43,498 nt of DNA, taken from contig JAHEKZ010000003.1 of assembly GCA_024644435.1 (NCBI GenBank), positions 69,273-112,770 of the forward strand. Reading direction: 5' to 3'. The notes below the pieces were generated by a model that was not told the origin of the DNA, ran no database searches, and saw only the letters and a list, made by a program, of their open reading frames with translations. The stretch is from Actinomycetes bacterium. Its GTDB lineage: Bacteria > Actinomycetota > Actinomycetes > JAHEKZ01. Shown one piece after another: positions 5,654 through 32,570 of this stretch. Each line of letters begins with the position of its first letter. The first letter of the stretch is position 1. Both the position numbers and the translations under genes were made by a program.

Positions 5654-5844
5654 TGTATGCCTGGCTCTGGCGTCATCTGCCCGGTCCGACGGCTGTCCGC
5701 GTGGTGATCGCGCTGGCGTTGTTCGTTGCTGTGGTGGCGGTTCTCTTCCTGTGGGTCTTCCCCTGGGTCGAGCCGCGCCTCCCGTTCACCGACGTCACCG
5801 TTGACGAGTCGGCGTCCGCGGCTGGCCTAGGCTGGCGGTTGTGA
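5653..5844 (+). CDS. Small single-pass membrane protein of unknown function
   Basis: A 63-residue protein with start MYAWLWRHLPGP, one strongly hydrophobic helix (about residues 16-40) and an acidic, probably extracytoplasmic, tail. The ATG overlaps the sortase stop (TGATG), and its stop overlaps the trpG start by 4 bases, so it is translated as part of the sortase operon. The codon use and tight coupling argue that it is a real gene. It may assist the sortase or simply be a conserved small protein of this locus; no domain is recognised. Confidence 0.75.
   Translation: MYAWLWRHLPGPTAVRVVIALALFVAVVAVLFLWVFPWVEPRLPFTDVTVDESASAAGLGWRL
5828..5833 (+). promoter_or_regulatory. -10 element TAGGCT of a possible internal leaderless promoter (trpG)
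   Basis: TAGGCT inside the last codons of the small membrane protein ends exactly 7 bases before the GTG of trpG at 5841. It would allow trpG to be transcribed separately from the sortase genes. Confidence 0.45.
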
Positions 5845-6467
5845 GCACCCGGGTCCTGGTCGTCGACAACTACGACTCGTTCGTCTACAACCTCGTGCAG
5901 TACCTCGCCCAGCTCGACGCCGACTGCACCGTTCTTCGCAACGACGAGGTCGATCTCGACCGGGCAGCCGATTACGACGGCATATTGCTGAGCCCTGGGC
6001 CGGGCACGCCAGAGGACGCCGGTGTCTGTGTGCCACTGGTCCGGCAGCTTGCCGGGAGGGTGCCGATCTTCGGTGTCTGTCTCGGGCTGCAGGCGATGGC
6101 GGTGGCTTACGGCGCGACCGTGGGGAGGGCACCCGAACTGCTGCACGGCAAGACCAGTCTTGTCGAGCACGAGGGGGTCGGCGTGCTGGCCGGACTACCG
6201 AACCCGTTCACGGCGACCAGGTACCACTCGCTCGCCGTCGAGACGGCAACGGTCCCCGCCGAGTGGGACGTGACCGGGCGTACGGCGTCCGGCGTGATCA
6301 TGGCGATGAAGCATCGGACGCTGCCGGTCGAGGGTGTGCAGTTCCATCCTGAGTCGGTGCTCACCGAAGGCGGCCACCTGATGCTGGCCAACTGGCTCGG
6401 GGTGTGCGGTGACACCGGGGCCGTCGAGCGGTCGAGCGGGCTGGCCCCAGTCGCCCCCTCCCAGTAG
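5841..6467 (+). CDS. trpG: Glutamine amidotransferase, anthranilate / aminodeoxychorismate synthase component II
   Basis: A 208-residue class I glutamine amidotransferase that releases ammonia from glutamine for anthranilate synthase (tryptophan) or aminodeoxychorismate synthase (folate). It begins with VLVVDNYDSFVYN, has the oxyanion strand SPGPGTPEDAG, the nucleophile Cys80 in GVCLGLQ, and His169/Glu171 in FHPES. All catalytic residues are present. It is isolated from trpE and pabB, as is normal for the trpG gene next to pknB in Actinobacteria, where it may serve both pathways. The GTG start overlaps the preceding stop (GTGA). The gene is convergent with pknB, and a repeat-rich 129-bp gap separates them. 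Confidence 0.93.
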   Translation: MSTRVLVVDNYDSFVYNLVQYLAQLDADCTVLRNDEVDLDRAADYDGILLSPGPGTPEDAGVCVPLVRQLAGRVPIFGVCLGLQAMAVAYGATVGRAPELLHGKTSLVEHEGVGVLAGLPNPFTATRYHSLAVETATVPAEWDVTGRTASGVIMAMKHRTLPVEGVQFHPESVLTEGGHLMLANWLGVCGDTGAVERSSGLAPVAPSQ

Positions 6468-6468
6468 T

Positions 6469-6526
6469 GGGGCCATGTCACACCGGTTTGAAATGACCGA
6501 ACCAATCTGACATGGCGCCGATTCGG
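6469..6526. repeat. Dispersed hairpin repeat, copy 1 (partly diverged)
   Basis: From 6469 the arm GGGGCCATGTCACACCGG leads into GGTTTG, loop AAATGAC and CGAACC (6485-6503). The left arm matches the inverted form of copy 3 at 18873-18911. The right arm (6504-6526) is a diverged direct copy of the second half of copy 2 at 6559-6597. It begins two bases after the trpG stop. Confidence 0.7.
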
Positions 6527-6558
6527 GGGTGCGTGATTCGGGGTCCCCGTGCGGCGCT

Positions 6559-6597
6559 GGTTCGAAATGACCGAACCGGTGTGGCATGGCCCCGAAT
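6559..6597 (+). repeat. Dispersed hairpin repeat, copy 2 (39 bp identical to copy 3)
   Basis: These 39 bases are identical, in inverted orientation, to 18873-18911. The core is GGTTCG-AAATGAC-CGAACC, a 6-bp stem with a 7-base loop, followed by GGTGTGGCATGGCCCC. The element ends exactly at the pknB stop codon. It could work as a bidirectional terminator between trpG and pknB, or be a REP-type mobile relic. Confidence 0.85.
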
Positions 6598-8303
6598 TAG
6601 GGGGGGTTGCCTTGGCCGTTGCCGTTGTTGGTCTTGGTGTCGCTGGGTGAGGGGCTCGGTGATGCCGTGTCGGTCGGCGTGGGCGGTGCCTCGGCGATCG
6701 TGATCACCACGGTGGTGCCGAGACGCACCAAGGTTCCGCCGGCGGGCGACTGGGCGATCACGGTGCCCGGACGCGCCTGGTCGGTTTCTTCGTAGACCGG
6801 AGTGACGTTGAAGCCGGCGGCCTCCAGCACCTTGGTCGCGGTGGCCTCGCTGCTGTCCACGACATTCGGCACCTCGACCTCGCCGGTACTCACCGACAGG
6901 ACGACGGTCGACCCGACATCTTGGAGGGTGCCGCCGGGTGGGTCTGTGCTGATCACCGTGCCTGCTGCCTGGTCGGAGTTGACCGGCTGGGTCTCGACCC
7001 TGAAACCGGCCCCTTGCACCTGTTCGATGGCGACCTGCTGCGCCAACCCGACGACGTCAGGCACCTCGACCTGCTCAGGACCGGCTGATACGACCAAGGT
7101 GACGGTGGAGCCCTCTTCGGCCTCGGTGTCACCCAGCGGGTCTTGGGTCAACACGGTGTTCTTCTTCACGTCACTGCTCTGGGTCTCGACGTTGACCTGG
7201 AACTTGGCGTCTTCCAGCGTCTGCTGCGCATTCGACAGCTTGTCGCCCACGACATTGGGGACGGCCACTGTGGTGGTATCGCCCCCGAGCAGCGCCCAGG
7301 CCCCGGCGCCGAGCAGCGCGAGCGCGAGGATCACACCGATGGCCAGGGCCCAGTAGGCGCCCTTGCGGCTCTTCTCCTCGACCTCTTCGGGCTCGGTGAT
7401 GGCGGCGATCGCCTGGGTGGGCGGCTCGGCCATGACGGGGGGCGCCGCCACCGTGGCGCCCTGCAACGCCCGGTTGATGTCGGTTCGCATCTCAGCGGCC
7501 GACTGGTAGCGGTTCGCCGGGTTCTTGGTGAGCGCCTTCATGACGATGGCGTCGGCCTCGGCACCGATGTCGGGATTGAGCGTGGACGGGGGCAGCGGGT
7601 TCTCGCGGACATGCTGGTAGGCCACTGCCACAGGAGACTCGCCCTGGAACGGCGGACGCCCGGTGAGCAGCTCGTAGAGCAGACATCCGGCGGAGTAGAC
7701 GTCAGATCGGGCGTCCACCGTCTCGCCGCGCGCTTGCTCTGGCGACAGGTACTGGGCAGTCCCGAGGACGTTCGCGGTCTGGGTCATGGTCGCGCCGCTG
7801 TCGGCGACGGCCCTGGCGATACCGAAGTCCATCACCTTGACGTCACCGTTGGTGGCCAGCATCACGTTGGCCGGTTTGATGTCGCGGTGGATGATGCCCT
7901 GCCGGTGGCTGTACTCGAGCGCGCTCAGCACTCCGGTCGTGATCTCGAGTGCACGGTTCGGCATCAGTCGCTCGCCCTGGCGCAGCAGGTCGCGCAGTGT
8001 CTGGCCCTCGACGTACTCCATCACGATGTAGGGCACGCGGACGCCGTCGAGCTCGTCCTCTCCGGTGTCGTAGACGGCGACAACCGAGGGAGCGTTGAGC
8101 GATGCGGCTGACTGAGCTTCGCGTCGGAACCGGGCTTGGAATGTGGCGTCGCGCGCAAGGTCGGTGCGGAGCATCTTCACGGCCACGGAGCGACCGAGCC
8201 GAAGGTCGGTCGCCTTGCGCACGTCGGCCATGCCACCGTGGCCGAGCAGCTCGCCGAGCTCGTAGCGCCCGCCGAGTGTGCCGTTAGTTCTGTCGCCGCT
8301 CAC
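6597..8303 (-). CDS. pknB: Serine/threonine protein kinase PknB with three PASTA domains
   Basis: A 568-residue transmembrane Hanks-type kinase. The kinase domain covers about residues 12-280: GHGGMAD loop, Lys43 (VAVK), HRDIKPAN with Asp141, DFG at 159-161, and an activation loop MTQT (Thr174/Thr176) matching the autophosphorylated pair of mycobacterial PknB. A linker precedes a membrane helix at about 317-339, followed by three extracellular PASTA repeats (starting VPNVVGD, VPDVVGL and VPNVVDS), which bind muropeptides or lipid II. Mycobacterium has four PASTA units. The GTG at 8303 overlaps the pbpA stop (GTGA) and starts VSGDRTNGTLGGRYEL; a longer upstream reading frame lies within pbpA and is rejected. 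It is the last gene of the fhaA operon. Confidence 0.97.
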   Translation of the reverse strand: MSGDRTNGTLGGRYELGELLGHGGMADVRKATDLRLGRSVAVKMLRTDLARDATFQARFRREAQSAASLNAPSVVAVYDTGEDELDGVRVPYIVMEYVEGQTLRDLLRQGERLMPNRALEITTGVLSALEYSHRQGIIHRDIKPANVMLATNGDVKVMDFGIARAVADSGATMTQTANVLGTAQYLSPEQARGETVDARSDVYSAGCLLYELLTGRPPFQGESPVAVAYQHVRENPLPPSTLNPDIGAEADAIVMKALTKNPANRYQSAAEMRTDINRALQGATVAAPPVMAEPPTQAIAAITEPEEVEEKSRKGAYWALAIGVILALALLGAGAWALLGGDTTTVAVPNVVGDKLSNAQQTLEDAKFQVNVETQSSDVKKNTVLTQDPLGDTEAEEGSTVTLVVSAGPEQVEVPDVVGLAQQVAIEQVQGAGFRVETQPVNSDQAAGTVISTDPPGGTLQDVGSTVVLSVSTGEVEVPNVVDSSEATATKVLEAAGFNVTPVYEETDQARPGTVIAQSPAGGTLVRLGTTVVITIAEAPPTPTDTASPSPSPSDTKTNNGNGQGNPP

Positions 8304-16111: not shown

Positions 16112-17353
16112 GTGAAATGGGTGAGCGCAGACGGCGCCGTTGCGGCGGTCGCATCGCTAGGCGGATGCCCGCGCGTCGTGGTGAGCGGAAATCACGCAAC
16201 TCCCGGAGCGATGGTCGACGCACTGGACGCCGGTATGCCGCAGTTTCGACTCTGGGCGCTCAATGCCCAGTCGGGGATGCCCGATCGAGACGGCATCGAG
16301 CTCGAGACGTGTTTCGTCGGTCCCGGGATGCGCAAGAGCCGCCATCTTCGGTACGTCCCATCACGGTTGTCGCTCGTCCCTGTCCTGTTCCGTGAACGGC
16401 TGCGTCCGGATGCGGTCGTGGTTCACGTCTCGCGGGTTGTCGAGGGAAAGGTGTCGCTCGGGGCCGAGGTGAATGTGCTTCCCGCCGCCATCGAGCAGTG
16501 CCGAGCAGCCGGGGGCTTGCTGATCGGGCAGGTGAACCGATTCATGCCCTACACCTACGGCGACGGTGAGTACTCCGTCGATGACTTCGACTACCTCGTT
16601 GAAGCAGATCAGCCACTGATGGACCTTCCCCGGCCGCCGATCGACGATGTTTCCGGGGCGATCGGTGAGCGAGTCGCCCAACTCGTCACCGATGGAGCCA
16701 CGCTGCAGCTGGGGATCGGTGCTGTCCCCGATGCCTCGCTTCCGGGGATGGCCCAACGGCGGCAGCTGAAGATCTGGTCCGAGATGGTGAGCGACGGCGT
16801 CCTGACCTTGCGTGAAGACGGTGCACTGGACGTTGACGAGCCAGTCGTGGCGTCGTTCGTCTTCGGTTCGCAGCAGCTGTACGACTGGGTGGATGAGAAC
16901 CCGGCGGTCCGGCTACTGAGGACTGAGACGACGAACGACCCGGCGCACATCTCGACCAGACCGCTGATGGTGTCGGTCAATGCGGCGTTGCAGGTGGATC
17001 TGTTCGGTCAGGCGAATGCGTCGCGGATCGGGAACCGGATCTACTCGGGATTCGGCGGTCAGTCCGACTTCGTGGTCGGAGCTCTGCACTCGCCGGGGGG
17101 TAAGGCGTTGATCGCCATGCGGTCGTGGCACCCCAAGGCGAACGTGTCGACGATCGTGCCGCTGGTGGACGAACCGGTGACGTCGTTCCAGCACAGCGCC
17201 GTGGTGACCGAGCACGGGGTGGCGCCGATCTGGGGCTGCTCGCAGCAGGAGCAGGCACTGAACCTGATCGATCATGCGGCACATCCGGACGTGCGCGACG
17301 AGCTCTACGAAGAAGCGGTTGCCCTCTCGCTGGTCAGCCCCATCTCAAGCTGA
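16112..17353 (+). CDS. Acetyl-CoA hydrolase/transferase family protein
   Basis: A 413-residue CoA-transferase family I protein, similar in layout to 4-hydroxybutyrate CoA-transferase and acetyl-CoA hydrolase. It shows LQLGIGAVPDASL (CoA-binding loop), IWSEMVSDG (region of the catalytic Glu), NAALQVDLFGQANASRIGNRIYSGFGGQSDF (cited as a motif in part: DLFGQ, GFGGQ), GKALIAM and VVTEHGVA. These enzymes move CoA between carboxylic acids, or hydrolyse short acyl-CoAs. The substrate cannot be told. The 3' end overlaps the convergent nitronate monooxygenase gene by 9 bp, with no room for a terminator between them. Confidence 0.9.
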   Translation: MKWVSADGAVAAVASLGGCPRVVVSGNHATPGAMVDALDAGMPQFRLWALNAQSGMPDRDGIELETCFVGPGMRKSRHLRYVPSRLSLVPVLFRERLRPDAVVVHVSRVVEGKVSLGAEVNVLPAAIEQCRAAGGLLIGQVNRFMPYTYGDGEYSVDDFDYLVEADQPLMDLPRPPIDDVSGAIGERVAQLVTDGATLQLGIGAVPDASLPGMAQRRQLKIWSEMVSDGVLTLREDGALDVDEPVVASFVFGSQQLYDWVDENPAVRLLRTETTNDPAHISTRPLMVSVNAALQVDLFGQANASRIGNRIYSGFGGQSDFVVGALHSPGGKALIAMRSWHPKANVSTIVPLVDEPVTSFQHSAVVTEHGVAPIWGCSQQEQALNLIDHAAHPDVRDELYEEAVALSLVSPISS

Positions 17354-18823
17354 TGCTGGCGGCGCTTCGATCTCTGACAGCAGCCACTGCATGACCTCGG
17401 CAGCTGACCAACCGTCGGGGTGCATCTCGAGCAGGGCGTGAACTGCCTCGAGGTCTTGGCCGAGCGTCAACAGCGGTGGCTCAGCCGACCCGTTGGGCCG
17501 GATCTGCGGAACGCCGGCTGATGCCATGAGCCCGTTGCACAGACACTTGCGCCCCTCGGTCTCTTCGACGGTCCCGCCCTTGCGGACGTAGGCATCGATC
17601 GGCTCGGACGGACAGCGCTGCCCGATCGTGCCGTCGTCACGTAGGTAGGGAGTGCGCAGGTAGCCGAGGTCGCAGATGCGTCCGCGGGTGGCCGCCACCT
17701 CGGGGTCGGCGATGGTGCCGGCCATCTGGACCACCTTGAAGGGAAACCCGGTGGGGCTGGCGCGGGGGTCGGTCCGGACCTCGGCGGTACCCGCGTCCAA
17801 GGACTTGCGGAGGGCCGTGCGAAGGGGCTCAGAGATGCCGGACTCGTTGCACAGAGCAAAGACCGTGCCGATCTGGACGCCCTGGGCGCCGCCCTCGAGC
17901 GCCGCCGCCACGTGCTTGGGAGCGGCCTGTCCACCGGCCAACCAGTAGGGCAGGCCAACCTTCATCAGCTTGTCGAGGTCGACGACGTCGCGCGGTCCGT
18001 AGATCGGCTCGCCACCCTCGTCGAGCTCGTTGCGCCGTGGCGGGGCGTTGTGTCCGCCGGCGGTGGGGCCCTCGACGACGAAGCCGTCGGGCTTGGTGGC
18101 GTCGTCACGGGCGAGGTAGGCACCGAGGATGTGCGAGGAGATGATCGCAAGGAACACCGGTCGGGGCAGGGTGTCGGGTGCTGGAGGGACGACAGCCTTC
18201 GGGTCGAGCGTGATGACGAGCTCGGTGGATGACTCAGCGCCGGCCACGTCGATCGGCAGCGACACCTCGCGGCCGTTCGCGAAGTCGTCGAGCAGGCGCG
18301 GGATATGGGTCGGTAGGCCGGCGCCGACGAGTACGACGTCGACGTTCGCGAGCATCGCGCCGTAGAGGGTGGCGGGGCTCCAGAGCTGGATCTTCTCGAG
18401 AAGGTTGATGCCAACCGGGCCGTCGTGACCACTCTTGGCCATCGTCACCTGGACGAAGGCGCCGAGCACTGCCAGGCGTACGGCGTCCATCTTCTGGTGG
18501 TGGTCGAGCCGCGGGATGGGACGGTACGGAGCTCCGGGCTCGCGCCCGTCGGGCCGGTAGAAGCGCTTGAGGGTTGCAGCGACGAAGTCTTGGTCGGGGT
18601 ACTCGACCATGGCGGCCTGCACGTGACCGCCCTGGTCGCCGTCCTGGAGCCACCGGGCGACGAGCAGGTCGGAGGCGACACCGCTGATCACGCCGAGCCC
18701 GCCGTGCTGGGCAACCTCGCGGGCGAGGCGCCAGCTGGAGACCGCAACACCCATGCCGCCCTGGATCACCGGAGGGAGCTGGTCCGCGGGGGTGGCCAGC
18801 TCGCGGTCGGAAACGTTCGTCAT
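17345..18823 (-). CDS. Nitronate monooxygenase family flavoprotein
   Basis: A 492-residue FMN-dependent TIM-barrel protein of the NMO / 2-nitropropane dioxygenase family. Motifs in order: PPVIQGGMGVAVS at the N-terminus, GGLGVISGVASD, VDVVLVGAGLPTH, EGPTAGGHN (FMN phosphate and catalytic His region), YWLAGGQA and GAQGVQIGTVFALC. It is longer than the common 320-380-residue enzymes because of a C-terminal extension with CLCNGLMASAG. NMOs oxidise alkyl nitronates such as propionate 3-nitronate; longer members are poorly characterised. ATG 18823 is used, because the frame upstream contains the dispersed repeat. A 12-bp palindrome lies 9 bp upstream. Confidence 0.9.
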   Translation of the reverse strand: MTNVSDRELATPADQLPPVIQGGMGVAVSSWRLAREVAQHGGLGVISGVASDLLVARWLQDGDQGGHVQAAMVEYPDQDFVAATLKRFYRPDGREPGAPYRPIPRLDHHQKMDAVRLAVLGAFVQVTMAKSGHDGPVGINLLEKIQLWSPATLYGAMLANVDVVLVGAGLPTHIPRLLDDFANGREVSLPIDVAGAESSTELVITLDPKAVVPPAPDTLPRPVFLAIISSHILGAYLARDDATKPDGFVVEGPTAGGHNAPPRRNELDEGGEPIYGPRDVVDLDKLMKVGLPYWLAGGQAAPKHVAAALEGGAQGVQIGTVFALCNESGISEPLRTALRKSLDAGTAEVRTDPRASPTGFPFKVVQMAGTIADPEVAATRGRICDLGYLRTPYLRDDGTIGQRCPSEPIDAYVRKGGTVEETEGRKCLCNGLMASAGVPQIRPNGSAEPPLLTLGQDLEAVHALLEMHPDGWSAAEVMQWLLSEIEAPPASA

Positions 18824-18831
18824 CGACAACC

Positions 18832-18843
18832 TACGGTACCGTA
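18832..18843. promoter_or_regulatory. 12-bp perfect palindrome TACGGTACCGTA, operator candidate
   Basis: TACGGTACCGTA is perfectly self-complementary and lies 9 bp upstream of the nitronate monooxygenase ATG, overlapping TAGGTT, the best -10 candidate of that gene. Palindromes of this TAC-GGTACC-GTA type are typical of TetR-family operators. No TetR gene is in the window. Confidence 0.45.
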
Positions 18844-18872: not shown

Positions 18873-18911
18873 ATTCGGGGCCATGCCACACCGGTTCGGT
18901 CATTTCGAACC
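18873..18911 (-). repeat. Dispersed hairpin repeat, copy 3 (39 bp identical to copy 2)
   Basis: The 39 bases are the exact reverse complement of 6559-6597. Here the element lies between divergent genes (nitronate monooxygenase and DNA glycosylase), unlike copies 1 and 2, which lie between convergent genes. That makes a pure terminator role unlikely. Confidence 0.85.
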
Positions 18912-18931
18912 ATTTCCGCATGCTGCGTCAG

Positions 18932-18937
18932 CACAAT
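18932..18937 (+). promoter_or_regulatory. -10 element CACAAT of a leaderless promoter (DNA glycosylase gene)
   Basis: CACAAT ends 6 bases before the GTG at 18944. One mismatch from TATAAT-type TAnnnT. Confidence 0.4.
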
Positions 18938-18943
18938 GGCGGT

Positions 18944-19801
18944 GTGCCCGAGATGCCGGAAGTGGAAGCGCTCGCCGGGTTCCTCGGCGAGCGACTGGTC
19001 GGACGCGTGGTGGCGAGCGTCGACGTCGCCGGTATCGCGGCCCTGAAGACCTACGACCCACCGGTCACGTCGCTCGGCGGCCTGACCGTGACGGCGGTCG
19101 CCCGGCGTGGCAAGTTCATCGACATCGACGTCGATGGCCTCCACCTCGTCGTCCACCTCGCCCGTGCAGGCTGGGTGCGCTGGCGAGAGTCGATGACGGC
19201 CACTCCGTTGAGGCCGGGCAAGGGGCCGATCGTCCTACGAGTCCACCTCGATGACGAGTCGGGCCTGGACTTCACCGAGGCGGGTACCACCAAGAAGCTC
19301 GCCGTGTACGTCGTGCGCGACGTGCACGAGGTTCCGGGGATTGCTCGCCTCGGCCCTGATCCGCTGACGCTCGACCCGGCAACCTTGGACTCGCTGCTCA
19401 CTGAGCACGGACGGACTCAGCTCAAGGGGTTCCTGCGCAGCCAGGCGATCATCGCGGGGATTGGCAACGCCTACAGCGACGAGATCCTGCACGTGGCTCG
19501 GCTCTCTCCCTTCGCGCTCACCGGACGCCTCGACGCGTCCGCCCGCGAGAGGCTCTTCGACGCGATCGGGTCGACCCTGCGGGACGCCGTGGATCGCTCG
19601 ATGGGACTTCCCGCGTCCGAGCTGAAGGACGACAAGCGAGCGGCCATGCGCGTCCATGGACGCACAGGTCAGCAGTGTCCCGAGTGCGGCGACGTCATCC
19701 GCGAGGTGTCGTTCGCCGACTCGTCGCTGCAGTACTGCGCGACGTGTCAGACGGGCGGAAGGCCGCTGGCCGATCGCCGCCTCTCGCGCCTGCTCAAGTA
19801 G
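18944..19801 (+). CDS. Formamidopyrimidine-DNA glycosylase / endonuclease VIII family (Fpg/Nei)
   Basis: A 285-residue bifunctional DNA glycosylase/AP lyase of base excision repair. GTG 18944 gives VPEMPEVEAL, so Pro2 (the Schiff-base nucleophile) and Glu3 are placed as in Fpg; an ATG at 18953 would also give a Pro2-Glu3 start but is three codons shorter than the family norm. Further evidence: ARRGKFID (beta-lysine), IAGIGNAYSDEILH (Asn of the helix-two-turn-helix) and a C-terminal zinc finger CPEC-x16-CATC. Members with this sequence style in Actinobacteria are often called Fpg/Nei; substrate preference (8-oxoG or oxidised pyrimidines) is not clear. Confidence 0.93.
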   Translation: MPEMPEVEALAGFLGERLVGRVVASVDVAGIAALKTYDPPVTSLGGLTVTAVARRGKFIDIDVDGLHLVVHLARAGWVRWRESMTATPLRPGKGPIVLRVHLDDESGLDFTEAGTTKKLAVYVVRDVHEVPGIARLGPDPLTLDPATLDSLLTEHGRTQLKGFLRSQAIIAGIGNAYSDEILHVARLSPFALTGRLDASARERLFDAIGSTLRDAVDRSMGLPASELKDDKRAAMRVHGRTGQQCPECGDVIREVSFADSSLQYCATCQTGGRPLADRRLSRLLK

Positions 19802-28283: not shown

Positions 28284-28288
28284 ATCTT

Positions 28289-28334
28289 GCCGAGTGCACA
28301 GCTGGTGGACGCAAAACCGCGTCGAGTGCACGCC
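28289..28334 (+). repeat. Paired-box dispersed repeat, copy A (upstream of serS)
   Basis: CGAGTGCAC occurs at 28291-28299 and again at 28323-28331, 32 bp apart, with GCTGGTGGACGCAAAA between. The 46-bp unit matches the minus strand of 32517-32562 at 35 of 46 positions. It starts 6 bases after the GGDEF-EAL stop codon and ends 10 bases before the serS -10 element. Confidence 0.65.
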
Positions 28335-28344
28335 CTGGGCTCGG

Positions 28345-29642: not shown

Positions 29643-29694
29643 GAGGCCGGATGTCCGAAGACGTGGCCAGCAGTGAGACCGACCTTGATGCAAC

Positions 29695-29734
29695 GCGGAA
29701 GTTTGCTGGGGTCAGGACCCCAGCAAACTTCCGC
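29695..29734. terminator. 19-bp perfect inverted repeat between serS and trpB2
   Basis: GCGGAAGTTTGCTGGGGTC (29695-29713) and its exact complement (29716-29734) are separated only by AG. It sits between convergent genes, 9 bases from the trpB2 stop. It is most simply a bidirectional terminator, although there is no T-tract. Confidence 0.7.
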
Positions 29735-29743
29735 ATTGACTGG

Positions 29744-32464: not shown

Positions 32465-32516
32465 GGGCTCTCCCGATCCGAAGTGACGGCCGCAGTCAAG
32501 CACACGGCGTCGTCAC

Positions 32517-32562
32517 GGTGCGCACTCGATGGCCATTTTCGTCATCCAGGTGTGCACTCGGC
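32517..32562 (-). repeat. Paired-box dispersed repeat, copy B
   Basis: On the minus strand CGAGTGCAC (32560-32552) and CGAGTGCGC (32528-32520) are 32 bp apart, with ACCTGGATGACGAAAA following the first box. It aligns with 28289-28334 at 35 of 46 positions, in the same position relative to the preceding stop codon (it starts 8 bases after the hotdog lyase stop). Confidence 0.65.
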
Positions 32563-32570
32563 GAGAGGGG

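Follow-up and report, generated by a model that had tools for sequence, protein, structure and literature searches.

A composite palindromic element between trpG and pknB

The window analysed here, a stretch of 43,498 nucleotides, contains the convergent genes trpG and pknB, and one 125-bp element fills the gap between their stop codons (Table 1). The stop codon of trpG (TAG) lies 1 bp before the element and that of pknB (TAA) occupies 6597-6599 on the minus strand. The element consists of inverted outer arms of 22 bp, a middle that is weakly palindromic, and the core GGTTYG-AAATGAC-CGAACC in two directly repeated copies at 74 bp. The first AAATGAC loop is non-complementary between the arms in most copies. 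We detected the core GGTTCGAAATGACCGAACC three times in the window at ≤3 mismatches, compared with no match in 100 shuffles. A right half, comprising one core and the right outer arm, lies between two gene starts, with its inner end 8 bp from the start of the Fpg/Nei gene.

Table 1. Features of the two loci in the window
Feature	Position	Strand	Evidence
Full composite palindromic element, 125 bp, between convergent trpG/pknB stops	6469-6593	+	Covariance model E 2.0e-20; fold
Left outer arm GGGGCCATGTCACACCGGTTTG	6469-6490	+	20/22 complementary to 6572-6593
Loop motif AAATGAC, first copy	6491-6497	+	Direct repeat of 6565-6571 at 74 bp
Variable inner region	6504-6558	+	Inner inverted repeat CACCCATCCGTCCACAG..CTGTGGACAGATGGGTG in better-preserved copies elsewhere
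Loop motif AAATGAC, second copy	6565-6571	+	Core match
Right outer arm CGAACCGGTGTGGCATGGCCCC	6572-6593	+	Complementary to left outer arm
Right half element (core + right outer arm), between divergent genes	18877-18911	-	Core match
trpG/pabA, anthranilate/aminodeoxychorismate synthase component II	5841-6467	+	NF005849 1.2e-103; PF00117
pknB-type PASTA Ser/Thr kinase; stop 3 bp after element	6597-8303	-	NF033483 1.1e-187
Nitronate monooxygenase-family gene; start side towards right half	17345-18823	-	PF03060 1.6e-19
Fpg/Nei-type DNA glycosylase gene	18920-19801	+	PF01149, PF06831

This layout revises an earlier, sequence-only reading of the locus, which had counted 6469-6526 and 6559-6597 as separate hairpin copies. 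The two together make up one element, as its left and right halves, and what looked like a diverged right arm in the first copy is the inner part of that element. The reading had correctly identified the 39-bp block 6559-6597 as the exact reverse complement of 18873-18911. It also had the element ending exactly on the pknB stop codon; the block shares one base (6597) with that codon, whereas the element itself ends at 6593.

Two other palindromic sequences were observed in the window. At 18828-18841, immediately upstream of the nitronate monooxygenase-family gene, lies a palindrome-like sequence, CTACGGTACCGTA(G). It is probably a regulator site, and all four species of the genus compared below share its core CCTACGGTACCGTA unchanged. 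Convergent genes flank a near-perfect inverted repeat of 23 bp (loop of 2 nt) at 29691-29738.

A repeat family in the host genome and two congeners

We compared the host genome (G000; 2.53 Mb, 110 contigs) with two congeners (G001 and G002) and a fourth species of the genus (G003). All four are apparently fragmented drafts (100-380 contigs), and G003 is 73% complete. The core matched 26 places in G000 at ≤3 mismatches and the reversed control pattern none. Often these matches form direct pairs, spaced by 74-75 or 86 bp. A covariance-model search catalogued 57 elements in three genomes (18 in G000, 23 in G001 and 16 in G002), counts that take in full, 51-bp solo and right-half forms. The catalogue lists the trpG-pknB elements of G000 and G002 as solos, since their left half by itself qualifies as one, but both are full length. 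Together with the gene context, the catalogue supports the earlier proposal that hairpin-forming repeats of one family lie in intergenic places near gene ends throughout the genome.

The consensus layout of the aligned copies is GGGGCCATGTCACACC-GGTTCGnAATGACCGAACC-(~55 bp containing an imperfect inverted repeat)-GGTTCGnAATGACCGAACC-GGTGTGACATGGCCCC, and the outer ends carry variable flanks of 4-6 nt between CCCC and GGGG. In full copies both outer arms are present, complementary at 16-22 of 22 positions; the earlier impression that each copy keeps only one arm intact arose from taking a half element for the whole. Reduced forms are the 51-bp solo, with one core and both outer arms, and the right half. 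Hardly any true left halves exist: the G000 candidate is a full copy broken by Ns, and in the G002 candidate, also a full copy, the second core is degraded.

A paired-core pattern search of 118 relatives gave matches in G000-G002 only, and the outer arms were not shared by anything outside the genus. Other taxa and viral contigs contain isolated exact matches to the core, which we regard as chance because none has outer arms. The type-A core was not found in G003. Of the weak covariance-model matches in that genome (L158 and L162), L158 was set aside since it appears to read as pheS/pheT coding sequence. Searching Rfam 15 returned nothing above the gathering threshold, only sub-threshold matches to mir-4520. 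Core spacings of 54, 65 and 86 also occur, which led us to drop a tRNA-like reading of the ~75-bp spacing. We also set aside a LexA-type site, whose half-site order we take to be the opposite.

Elements lie behind stop codons

The 17 unique sites in G000 comprise 8 convergent, 8 tandem and 1 divergent gap. At 16 of them an outer end lies within ~50 bp of a stop codon, usually at 1-30 bp, and overall 23 outer ends point towards stops and 6 towards starts. Between convergent genes the element is often directly behind the stop codons of both. Adding the G001-only sites gave 27 unique sites, 14 convergent and 2 divergent. Relative to the window's own 21 gaps of at least 50 bp (5 convergent, 9 divergent), divergent gaps are depleted (Fisher P 0.006) and convergent gaps are in excess (P 0.07). 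We note that genes were called with a home-made codon-usage caller, so that single contexts may be wrong, and that the right half at 18877-18911 was assigned as divergent by hand. The orientation of the loop relative to the gene is not constant. The flanking genes covered by family searches are mostly ordinary housekeeping genes.

Positions are shared between species

Most G000 elements have a counterpart at the orthologous place in G002 and/or G001. The flanks of orthologous sites are 74-90% identical overall (mostly 82-90% for G000-G002 and about 74-82% for G000-G001). Because most copies occupy orthologous sites in sister species, we consider them inherited and not recently moved. A conserved site found always at the same orthologous genes, which the sequence-only reading had named as grounds for abandoning its proposal, describes many of the sites and not all.

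The state of the element varies between orthologous sites. The trpG-pknB site is full in G000 and G003, full but with its left core degraded in G002 and a right half in G001; elsewhere, solos (G000:C66 and G002:C101) correspond to a full copy (G001:C69). The Fpg/Nei site of G003 aligns otherwise, and the right half is absent. At two full sites specific to G001, other genomes differ: at one, G000 and G002 have direct repeats of a second family (family B), and at the other, G003 has an element of its own type. Sites that lack the element show neither clean junctions nor a target duplication. One rearrangement breakpoint falls at elements: G001:C33:10982 joins the flanks of G000:C15:40256 and G000:C74:6371.

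Family B (GCCGAGTGCACACCTGGTTGACGC-like) also lies directly behind stop codons, at 28284-28340 and 32504-32570 of the window. It is present in G000:C30 and G002:C96, where G001 has the present family (family A), as if the two were interchangeable at one orthologous site. Two orthologous solos, G000:C71:5674 and G002:C149:15916, apparently carry the loop in opposite orientations, which may reflect either a flip or drift. A gene for a 336-aa protein (L190:3057-4067, G000:C72), located between meaB and an Rrf2 gene, is bracketed by two inverted right halves, and the gene with both halves is present in all four species. As a candidate for a missing enzyme it is a weak lead, with only a sub-threshold AbiEi_4 match (E 0.015). 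Its AlphaFold model (pLDDT 37) is too poor for a fold search. The protein has a conserved ExD-H motif, which we take to resemble that of PD-(D/E)XK nucleases.

Concerted change of the outer arms in G003

G003 has elements with a different arm, GGTGCAACGTCACGTTGCGTTC. One lies at the orthologous trpG-pknB site with the same layout as in the other species, and others at orthologues of the C72 pair, G001:C37, G001:C35, C12/C15/C144, C53:8001/C86 and C52/C152/C23. The full copies of G003 (125, 126, 126 and 136 bp) fall into the same length classes as those of the other species. Outer-arm identity between G003 elements and their orthologues is 0.53, and among G003 elements it is 0.87. In the other genomes, paralogues reach 0.87-0.92, and orthologues of G000 and G002 reach 0.97. 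The G003 arms are still palindromic, and pairs 3/124, 6/121, 8/119, 14/113 and 22/105, among others, are changed on both sides. The arms have thus changed in concert while the positions stayed. Across the genus, positions are inherited from species to species and the arm sequence is homogenised within each genome, with palindromy kept.

By flank identity, G000 groups with G002, and G001 groups weakly with G003 (5 of 6 loci); the arm change would therefore fall on the G003 branch. Single type-C-like sequences in G000:C64 and G002:C68 suggest that both arm types may have existed earlier. We found no report of concerted arm replacement at conserved REP positions in the literature searched, most subscription literature lying outside the search.

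Comparison with known repeat systems

ERIC-type elements, imperfect palindromes of ~127 bp, are of similar length and likewise intergenic, a likeness by description alone. Direct core repeats are, to our knowledge, no feature of ERIC.

REPINs and BIMEs are REP doublets with inverted ends round a variable spacer, a fixed spacing of 71 bp and compensatory changes (Bertels and Rainey 2011, PMC3116915). The elements described here share the inverted ends, variable spacer, long hairpin, compensatory changes, extragenic location and singlets as remnants, and have a spacing of 74-75 bp. Unlike REPINs and BIMEs, they have no detectable RAYT gene and no 5' GTAG tag, number tens and not hundreds of copies, occupy orthologous sites in species with 74-88% nucleotide identity, and carry directly oriented cores whose spacing classes differ by about one helical turn. 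CGTC-tagged REPs have no dedicated transposase; convergent copies lie within 20 bp of both 3' ends, and tandem copies near the 3' end of the upstream gene (Di Nocera 2013, PMC3733652). The present elements likewise lie near 3' ends without a dedicated transposase, but they are composite, 125-137 bp long and from an actinobacterial host, and lack a conserved unpaired CGTC end. In the work summarised in PMC12306157, REPs within 15 nt of stop codons lower translation. The elements similarly place a predicted stable hairpin ~1-30 nt from a stop codon, but differ in sequence and size from the REPs of that summary.

As extragenic palindromes mostly downstream of genes, the elements resemble REPs, and their two inverted ends at fixed spacing form one hairpin as in a REPIN, though the core loops are direct. 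The 16-23 elements catalogued per genome do not reach the copy number typical of REPs (>100 per genome), and no unpaired GTAG or CGTC tag is conserved at the element ends. The family works like REP/REPIN; tag, RAYT and copy number set it outside that class.

RNA hairpin or DNA site

The predicted RNA fold of 6455-6612 is very stable (-94.8 kcal/mol, z -7.3). No intrinsic terminator was called at 6469-6593; there is no U-tract and therefore no canonical intrinsic terminator. We favour a 3'-end boundary hairpin as the probable role and estimate a probability of roughly one half for an old, non-autonomous, position-conserved REPIN-like family of such hairpins, confined to one uncultured actinobacterial genus. 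Covarying arms, the place behind stop codons, the orthologous positions and the stable predicted fold are in its favour, as is the apparent exchange with family B at one orthologous site. Against it are the right halves, which lack the long outer stem, the absence of a U-tract, the Fpg/Nei site between two gene starts, the core-spacing classes and the inconstant loop orientation. A transcript entering the element from either side would form a rod hairpin directly after the stop codon. Such a hairpin would act as a two-way 3' boundary, protecting mRNA 3' ends and limiting read-through into the convergent neighbour. Solo forms may derive from recombination between the two direct core repeats, and new copies were probably seeded only rarely, by an enzyme possibly since lost.

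The main rival, which we consider unlikely, is that a trans-acting protein of architectural, supercoiling-related or recombinase-like kind binds the elements as double-stranded DNA, with both AAATGAC cores on the same helix face and all sites following a specificity shift in G003. Element lengths are only 105, 116, 125-127 and 136-138 bp, that is, in steps of ~10.5 bp; the probability of such phasing by chance is ~0.007 for four changes and 4e-5 for eight, in both cases treated as independent although the length classes partly share ancestry. Core-spacing classes ~10.6 bp apart are as indicative of a double-stranded DNA site as of RNA. The concerted arm change at orthologous sites also fits a protein site, as does the asymmetric, conserved 7-bp loop in direct orientation between symmetric, palindromic arms. 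Recombinase core sites likewise have a directly oriented core between palindromic arms. However, we found no candidate protein, the elements lie behind stop codons and not in promoters, and many sites are half or solo. We give somewhat less credence still to the specific version in which a co-evolving DNA-binding protein maintains 3'-end palindromes at orthologous positions as a RAYT-free, position-conserved counterpart of REPs, its shift in specificity in G003 having changed the arms genome-wide with layout, spacing phase and palindromy kept.

It is improbable that the elements are a decaying MITE/REPIN population of ancient insertions, passively inherited and functionless now, with halves and solos as wrecks. 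The differing states at orthologous sites, the absence of the element at some of them and the breakpoint in G001:C33 would be expected of decay. Yet the arms are 87-97% identical between elements of G000, G001 and G002 and mostly complementary, whereas neighbouring genes are 74-88% identical and inner parts drift, and the outer ends keep facing stop codons. The sequence-only reading had invoked a RAYT (Y1) transposase that actively moves the elements as REPs, and dispersed intergenic hairpin doublets near gene ends are indeed REPIN-like (PMC3116915, PMC3733652). That reading is already largely refuted, and we regard it as very improbable: the RAYT/Y1 transposase family (Pfam PF01797) matched none of the four genomes of the genus, compared with 6 of 14 control genomes in the same search, copies sit mostly at orthologous sites, and neither a clean insertion nor a GTAG/CGTC tag was seen.

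Implications

The function of REPs and REPINs has long been an open question because mobility and function are mixed in the genomes studied. Here, conservation between species extends to place, layout and arm pairing, with no RAYT detectable, while the arm sequence itself has turned over in concert. The family thereby separates what selection keeps (place, pairing, loop and spacing phase) from the arm sequence, and RNA-hairpin and DNA-protein models become separately testable in it.
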